DNA from: Candidatus Saccharimonadota bacterium
GTDB lineage: Bacteria > Patescibacteriota > Saccharimonadia > Saccharimonadales > Saccharimonadaceae
NCBI GenBank assembly: GCA_017545585.1
Contig: JAFWMK010000006.1
Span: 1 to 64,000, forward strand
Length of the DNA stretch: 64,000 nucleotides
Direction: 5' to 3'
A program made the translations under genes and the position numbers. The stretch's first letter is position 1; each line of letters starts with the position of its first letter. Below the pieces are notes generated by a model. The model ran no database searches. It saw only the letters and a list, made by a program, of their open reading frames with translations, and was not told the origin of the DNA. This document shows, piece by piece, positions 23,071 to 24,472 of the stretch.

Positions 23071-24018
23071 ATGAATATTTGGAATAAGTTAGAAAAACCG
23101 TTTTTGATTTTAGCTCCAATGGAGGGGGTGACGGATGTAATTTTTCGACAAGTGGTCGCAAAAGCTGGGAGGCCAGATCTCTTTTTTACGGAATTTACCA
23201 ATGTGTCATCTTATGCATCGGAAAAAGGTAGGGCAAACGCTTTAGAAAGGCTGGAGATTGTGCCGACGGACAAACCGATTATTGCGCAGATTTGGGGTAA
23301 AAATCCGGAACATTTTGCGGAAACTGTCAAGGCGCTTTCATCTTTGGGATTTGCTGGGGTGGATCTTAATTTTGGTTGTCCGGACAAAAATGTGAATCGG
23401 GCTGGTGGAGGAGCGGCGATGATCAAAACGCCGGATTTGGCGGTAGAGTGTCTAAGGGAGGCTCGAAAAAACACGGATTTGCCAGTATCGGTAAAGACGC
23501 GGTTGGGTTGGAAAGATCCAGAGGAATTTAAAACTTGGCTCCCGATACTTCTAAAGGAACATCCGGCGGCTTTGACGGTGCATCTGAGAACCAAAAAAGA
23601 GATGAGTAAAGTGCCGGCACACTATGAAATAATTCCAGAAATTGTCAAGCTTCGAGCGGAACTTAGCCCAGAAACCAAGTTGATTATCAATGGTGACATC
23701 AAAGACAAGGCGCACGCTTTGGAGCTTTATGAAAAATATCCGGAGATAGATGGTTTTATGATTGGGCGGGGAGTTTTTTCTAATCCGTATTGTTTTACTA
23801 ATCATATTCCTAGCCGAGATGAGTTGATGGAGCTTCTTGATTTACACCTTGACTTATATGAGGAATATAGCAAAAATCACCGGGTGAGCTATGAGCCCCT
23901 AAAACATTTTTACAAAATCTATATTAATAATTTCCCAGGAGCTTCGGATCTTCGGGCTAAATTGATGGAGACGCATTCAATAGAAGAAGCACGAGCAGTT
24001 CTTGAAAATTTGTGCTAA
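23071..24018 (+). CDS. dus: tRNA-dihydrouridine synthase
   Basis: Flavin enzyme that reduces uridines in the tRNA D-loop. N-terminal LAPMEGVTDVIFRQVV is the FMN-barrel start; the catalytic cysteine lies in LNFGCPDKNVNRAGGGAAMIK; SVKTRLGW, LTVHLRTKKEMS, INGDIKD and GFMIGRGVFSNP follow. 315 residues, normal length. TGTTATAAT ends 7 bases before the ATG. Upstream at 23013-23035 a TTGACA/TATAAA-like pair with too long a spacer was not counted as a promoter. Confidence 0.94.
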   Translation: MNIWNKLEKPFLILAPMEGVTDVIFRQVVAKAGRPDLFFTEFTNVSSYASEKGRANALERLEIVPTDKPIIAQIWGKNPEHFAETVKALSSLGFAGVDLNFGCPDKNVNRAGGGAAMIKTPDLAVECLREARKNTDLPVSVKTRLGWKDPEEFKTWLPILLKEHPAALTVHLRTKKEMSKVPAHYEIIPEIVKLRAELSPETKLIINGDIKDKAHALELYEKYPEIDGFMIGRGVFSNPYCFTNHIPSRDELMELLDLHLDLYEEYSKNHRVSYEPLKHFYKIYINNFPGASDLRAKLMETHSIEEARAVLENLC

Positions 24019-24163
24019 AATAGAAATAACTCATGCTAAACTTCGGTCACTGGCAATGAGAAAAGTTTAAAGCTGTCGGTTTTGTCATTTAAGCCGGTAG
24101 CCAGGAGCCAATAAATCGGGCTCACATAAATGACTCTGTAATTAATTAAATAAGGAGTCTTTT
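24016..24163 (+). promoter_or_regulatory. Promoter and highly structured leader of the 83-residue gene
   Basis: The -10 box TGCTAAAAT (24016-24021) overlaps the dus stop codon. The predicted leader, about 135 nt, has four stems: AAACTT/AAGTTT (24038-24043, 24063-24068); an 11-bp stem with GU pairs (24072-24082, 24091-24101); GAGCC/GGCTC (24105-24109, 24119-24123); and GACTC/GAGTC (24132-24136, 24155-24159). The last covers the Shine-Dalgarno AAGGAG, so translation can be switched by opening it. It could be a riboswitch, protein-binding leader or thermosensor. Confidence 0.65.
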
Positions 24164-24415
24164 ATGAAAAACTTTAACAAAAATAAAACAGAGAAGGTCG
24201 AGGTGATGGCGCTATTTGGCTATCAAATGACGCCGTGCCAACCGCTGACGTTCCGCAAGGAAGGTGAGGCGGAAGTGGAGGTCACTGAGCTACTCCGGAC
24301 GCAAATTCGGTTTGTAGGGCAGACTACCCTTCATATTTTCGATATTCTCGTAGGCCGAGAGAAGATGCGGTTGGAGTTTAACTCCGTGGATCTTTCTTGG
24401 ACGTTGCTGGCCTAG
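24164..24415 (+). CDS. Unrecognised 83-residue protein behind a structured leader
   Basis: A small soluble protein with no membrane segment and no family I recognise. It has a lysine-rich start (MKNFNKNKTEKVEV), a central Glu/Val-rich part (EGEAEVEVTELLRTQIRF) and a beta-strand-like end (FDILVGREKMRLEFNSVDLSW). Real coding status is supported by a dedicated promoter, an AAGGAG site 6 bases before the ATG, and a strong terminator directly after the stop. It is a stand-alone regulated unit between dus and prfB. Confidence 0.7.
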   Translation: MKNFNKNKTEKVEVMALFGYQMTPCQPLTFRKEGEAEVEVTELLRTQIRFVGQTTLHIFDILVGREKMRLEFNSVDLSWTLLA

Positions 24416-24424
24416 AGCTAGCGG

Positions 24425-24453
24425 AACTGGACAGAGCCTCTGTCCAGTTTTTT
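24425..24453 (+). terminator. Terminator of the 83-residue gene
   Basis: AACTGGACAGA and TCTGTCCAGTT form an 11-bp perfect stem with a 3-base loop, running into TTTTTT. Confidence 0.9.
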
Positions 24454-24472
24454 AGTGTGATATAATATTTTT

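Follow-up and report, generated by a model that had tools for sequence, protein, structure and literature searches.

Our results suggested that a structured RNA leader found in Saccharimonadales most likely switches on the translation of small-protein/translesion operons. The leader is a new RNA family, and the proposed mechanism, a translational leader switch, is of a known kind in an unusual setting. The locus lies in the 64,000-nucleotide stretch of DNA analysed here (the window), which comprises positions 1 to 64,000 of the forward strand of contig JAFWMK010000006.1, from the Candidatus Saccharimonadota bacterium assembly GCA_017545585.1.

A promoter, a folded leader and a small gene between dus and prfB

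The interval between the end of dus (24018) and the start of prfB (24473) is occupied by an 83-codon gene with a promoter and a 134-nt leader before it and a terminator-like hairpin behind it (Table 1). The extended -10 element overlaps the dus stop codon (24016-24018), and transcription is inferred to start at about 24027-24030. The extended -10 is kept at a fixed spacing from the first hairpin, P1, in named relatives: 64 of the 77 scored carry a TATAAT-like hexamer (5 or 6 of 6) 23-24 nt before the P1 core motif, and in 62 of 77 a TGN precedes the -10 hexamer. Note that in the loci L143-L222 the small gene typically lies near dus and prfB; dus has the opposite orientation in many of these relatives, and the leader is independent of it. 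Downstream of the gene, the terminator-like stem is formed by CTGGACAGAG..CTCTGTCCAG and is followed by T6.

Table 1. Features of the leader and the small-protein gene (positions in the window)
Feature	Position	Strand	Remarks	Basis
Extended -10 promoter element, TGC-TAAAAT	24013-24021	+		Read from sequence
P1 hairpin	24030-24060	+		Alignment of relatives, covariation
P2 hairpin	24072-24101	+	24072-24082 paired with 24091-24101	Alignment, covariation
Pseudoknot 5' strand, GUCAUUUA	24084-24091	+	In P2 loop	Invariant GUCAUUU, partner conserved
P3 hairpin, GAGCC/GGCUC	24105-24123	+	24105-24109/24119-24123; loop variable	Alignment
Switch strand, UAAAUGAC	24127-24134	+	Alternative partners: 24084-24091 or SD/start region	
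Anti-SD, GACUC	24132-24136	+	5' side of P4	Pairing analysis
SD and start codon region, AGGAGUCUUUUAUG	24153-24166	+	3' side of P4	Occluded in nested fold
83-codon gene	24164-24415	+	Predicted all-beta product; family found across order	ORF list, profile searches
Intrinsic-terminator-like hairpin and T-run	about 24425-24454	+	3' of gene	Direct sequence reading; palindrome self-match

The leader has a minimum free energy of -43.7 kcal/mol, compared to -29.2 for shuffled sequences (z = -4.05, 0/200). P1 combines a variable, covarying outer helix with the core A-n-AC-[UUCG]-GU-CAC-U, in which the closing pair A24038:U24051 is followed by an internal loop of 1 nt opposite CAC, the AC:GU pairs and the tetraloop 24042-24045. 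P2 shows changes on both sides in 7/10 pairs among 28 relatives. The P3 stem is unchanged in 28/28 of them except for one G-U; in L076 and L077, GAGGTC/GACCTC replaces it. Finally, P4 pairs GACTC with GAGTC at 24155-24159 and can be extended over the start codon, to CAUAAAUGACUCU/AGGAGUCUUUUAUG. In the nested ensemble, the bases of the SD and the AUG have a pairing probability of 0.96 or more.

These results agree with a first-pass annotation of this DNA, which had described a promoter on the dus stop codon, three clear stems, a fourth stem that hides the Shine-Dalgarno (SD) site, an unknown gene of 83 residues and a terminator of its own for that gene. Its view that the layout is that of a cis-regulatory RNA also gained support from the conserved, covarying stems, with regulation itself remaining an inference.

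The leader is conserved with its gene in the window's genus

The window's genome falls in a Saccharibacteria genus whose named close relatives are mostly ruminant-gut MAGs, including Candidatus Nanosyncoccus alces. The gene was present in about half of the 60 relatives searched. In the order-wide sample, every genome of the genus with a strong match to the gene (73/73) also gave a leader-model match upstream of it, as against 0/15 others (14 without the gene and one, G177, with a weak gene match alone). Moreover, in 80/80 named loci that had been fetched by protein alone, the leader model stops at the start codon of the gene. The annotation had suggested searching relatives with a covariance model and asking which genes follow the leader; the answer is the same small gene. 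It had also held that its proposal would fall if the stems were not conserved in relatives that keep the gene, and in these the stems are kept and covary.

The leader can be aligned across relatives and the region upstream of the -10 cannot. In the alignment of the genus (type I leaders, 28 relatives), 90.5% of cells are paired and 12 pairs show double changes, a covariation score reached in 0/500 shuffles. Reverse-strand R1 matches that overlap true leaders are palindrome echoes. A 40-nt DNA match at G000:C9 reflects merely the A/T-rich similarity of start regions.

A pseudoknot competes with the helix that hides the SD

The first-pass annotation described the visible features correctly and missed a pseudoknot between the P2 loop and the anti-SD region (24084-24091 with 24127-24134). 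The P2 loop GUCAUUU is invariant in 28/28 relatives and its complement, AAAUGAC, follows P3. In the type I alignment this pairing is kept in 99.1% of cells, and the only changes are to G-U. The switch strand can pair either with 24084-24091, making the pseudoknot, or, within 24125-24137, with the SD/start region. The pseudoknot and P4 cannot both form fully, because the switch strand is the 5' side of P4 and GAC is common to both. In the window, the duplex energy of the SD helix is -13.7 kcal/mol versus -6.3 to -8.3 for the pseudoknot helix; therefore, the ON state would need help. The stronger P4 duplex fits a default OFF state. Note that the two pseudoknot strands hardly vary within the window's genus; the covariation for this helix is seen in other genera, whose sequences differ.

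In other genera of the family (type II leaders), the same P1 core is followed by the P2 loop AGAAACG, a switch strand CGUUUCUC.. and an SD side UUGAGGA or variants. In this alignment 93.6% of cells are paired and 17 pairs carry double changes (0/500 shuffles). The type II pseudoknot shows double changes in two pairs, for example from GAAACG:CGUUUC to AGAACG:CGUUCU. When strands were swapped between species, the mean energy of the SD duplexes went from -7.90 (native) to -6.29 kcal/mol and that of the pseudoknots from -7.66 to -6.72 kcal/mol, and in both cases 0/500 swaps reached the native value. On these comparisons, both exclusive pairings of type II use different letters from those of type I and both co-evolve. 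Type II leaders are also present at G163:C1 and G184:C1.

Type III leaders, present in other families of the order, are longer; they retain P1, an NCGG:CCGN helix and the anti-SD, with co-variation. Their second helix has 2.23 versus 1.64 extra pairs (0/1000), and the anti-SD scores -9.8 versus -8.8 (1/300). Although the swap tests preserve composition, these counts are not formal probabilities, as the tests are not tree-aware. Ten type III loci (L123, L125, L128, L132-L134, L137, L138, L140, L142) have, between the -10 and P1, a further conserved 5' element, approximately GTCATGTGAGTACTGG..CCTTTTTACNNACAGACTTATTTA, and some carry the start-stop ATGTGA. Type I P1 with the UUCG-type cap occurs in L092 and L100; L092, in which it is combined with the loop and switch strand of type II, is an evolutionary intermediate linking the types.

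The P1 core marks one protein family across the order

All types share the P1 core, that is, the closing A-U pair, the internal loop of one nucleotide versus CMC, and AC:GU. The cap is UUCG in type I and an extended, covarying apical helix in types II and III, where 94.1% of P1 cells are paired (covariation score 0/500 shuffles). We dropped the idea that the P1 of other genera is a circular permutation of the window's P1 for a simpler reading, in which the extended apical helix replaces the UUCG tetraloop and the A-n-AC/GU-CMC-U core has not moved.

A covariance model restricted to P1 found 101 sites in 81/364 genomes of the order. This model was built on types II and III and misses the type I P1, so the site counts are lower bounds. 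Across 342 genomes sampled from the phylum, the model matched ten genomes of the same order, plus two marginal matches elsewhere; the P1 RNA is essentially absent outside the order. A member of the small-protein family lies 141-340 nt after P1 in 99/100 fetched P1 sites, and the remaining site precedes a 45-codon ORF also seen elsewhere between leader and gene. Because the family profile was seeded with some P1 loci, the 99/100 is partly circular, but finding the sites relied only on the RNA. The 45-codon ORF (..LEKRMKEFLLAR..) stands between leader and gene in L082, L093, L095, L106, L126, L127 and L338, in several genera, and has no Pfam match.

The 83-residue product matched no family in Pfam or NCBIfam at E up to 10, nor did a type III paralogue at E up to 1, and a search of PDB sequences with the small protein gave no match. 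Its AlphaFold model is all-beta with moderate confidence (pLDDT 78). Compared with the PDB, the best VIA-align hit (Z 5.2) was an unrelated enzyme, which is no usable fold match.

In related genera, the small gene leads or forms part of translesion-polymerase operons: downstream there is often a gene for a Y-family polymerase (IMS and IMS_C domains), or else a pair of genes, first for an S24 peptidase (UmuD-like) and then for a UmuC-like protein; umuD-umuC genes come after type III leaders. In the window's genus the small gene is mostly alone, and in G022 and G008 it stands directly before a Y-family polymerase. No Y-family polymerase was found in the near-complete genome G001, and others alike, which keep gene and leader; four genus genomes (G013, G014, G016, G024) have the polymerase and lack the small gene, and in G016, where it was also searched for, the leader is missing too. 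The small protein is probably an accessory of translesion synthesis, an inference from gene context only. The first-pass annotation, right about the leader, had missed this polymerase link and the family-wide distribution. Where paralogues occur within one genome, each has a separate leader. Comparative evidence shows the structures, the pair of mutually exclusive helices and the leader's exclusive link to the gene.

Relation to known RNAs

In agreement with the annotation, which could not match the leader to a known riboswitch, Rfam gave no match in gathering or relaxed mode (best relaxed E = 1.1, to an unrelated snoRNA model). A literature search, with most subscription papers outside its coverage, found no report of the leader RNA. 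A cis-regulatory leader should have a structure that is conserved and covaries across the 5' UTRs of its gene family, and the present one does. It should also have alternative pairings that cover and free the SD, with co-evolution for both; this is met in types II and III, the type I strands being nearly invariant.

PreQ1-II and SAM-II are translational riboswitches with H-type pseudoknots, in which the pseudoknot itself hides the SD. As in these, the leader is short, a hairpin loop and downstream sequence form a pseudoknot and the output is access to the SD; unlike in these, its pseudoknot is the rival of the helix that hides the SD and would set the SD free, and the sequence of its putative aptamer resembles no Rfam model. 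The yjdF (PMC4793209) and pnuC (PMC7749635) riboswitches were orphans tied to a single gene family. The leader is likewise nearly exclusive to one gene family, but differs from them in sequence and structure, and in that their ligands are identified. It is also like the ribosomal-protein leaders (PMC7247131), structured leaders on genes whose product may bind them, except that its gene product is not a known ribosomal protein and no binding has been shown.

A probable bistable switch and its possible signals

We consider it likely that the leader is a bistable translational switch, with P1 and the P2 pseudoknot as its likely sensor, controlling the small-protein gene. In the OFF state, the strand CAUAAAUGACUC would fold back onto the SD and start codon; in the ON state, the P2 loop would take the same strand as a pseudoknot, releasing the SD. 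The sensor would most likely consist of the P2 pseudoknot and of P1, whose internal-loop motif is invariant, and a stabiliser would turn translation on. Since the nested fold hides the SD and stabilisation of P1/P2 frees it, an ON switch is the natural reading. The direction of switching, the existence of a signal and regulation itself are inferred from sequence alone, and the leader could be structured merely for slow constitutive translation.

In the absence of binding data, a small-molecule or ionic ligand of the RNA comes a little short of an even chance as the signal; the encoded protein is less probable, and another trans factor, temperature or no signal at all less probable again. We lean slightly towards a ligand over the protein on account of the ON polarity and the variable protein charge, although the exclusive gene association favours the protein. 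The downstream gene, whose function is unknown, suggests no ligand. One tentative possibility, also without binding data, is a new riboswitch class, restricted to Saccharimonadales, that would sense a small molecule connected with DNA damage or nucleotide stress and switch on translation of the small-protein/translesion-polymerase operon.

Autogenous control is a comparably doubtful possibility, for which binding data are also lacking: the small protein would bind the P1 of its own mRNA and set its own level and that of the polymerase behind. Such a leader should be restricted to the gene or operon of one protein, as occurs here, since 99/100 P1 sites precede one family, whether the gene has no partner or is followed by a Y-family polymerase or by umuD-umuC, and paralogues in one genome each have their own leader. 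However, a fold stabilised by binding would free the SD, the opposite of the usual feedback repression. Family members have computed pI values from 5.5 to 9.7, which gives no clear sign of a conserved RNA-binding surface, and some operons place the different 45-codon ORF first after the leader. No RNA-binding fold was recognised in the small protein, in a comparison of the AlphaFold model with the PDB that is too weak to count against binding.

An RNA thermometer or a constitutive low-translation leader, in which the SD hairpin sets a basal rate with no dedicated ligand, is improbable. Such elements typically take the form of a long A/U-rich helix across the SD and start codon, but they need neither the invariant P1 internal loop, nor the invariant P2 loop, nor a co-evolving competing helix, and the P1 core was retained order-wide while the rest of the leader changed. 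That the conservation merely reflects genome relatedness, or overlap with another feature, for example dus, antisense RNA or a short ORF upstream, is largely refuted: some pairs are invariant and same-genus relatives have much sequence in common, but the region upstream of the -10 is not alignable, double changes exceed those of shuffles and slid controls, dus is opposite in many relatives and the leaders of other genera stay paired with different letters.

A proposed RNA layer over translesion synthesis

Classical control of translesion synthesis, by LexA/UmuDC, acts at transcription. The leader resembles this system in that type III leaders precede umuD-umuC and a LexA-type DNA-binding domain is present in most genomes tested (above cut-off in 7/9), and differs in that it would add an RNA layer at translation initiation. 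With LexA domains in most tested genomes, the RNA would complement SOS control at transcription and not replace it. The leader represents an RNA family new to Rfam, in a group of ultrasmall, epibiotic bacteria in which gene regulation has hardly been explored, and it is tied to mutagenic DNA polymerases that are classically LexA-controlled at transcription. As it is associated with one unknown protein family only, the signal of the RNA and the role of the protein can both be tested directly.
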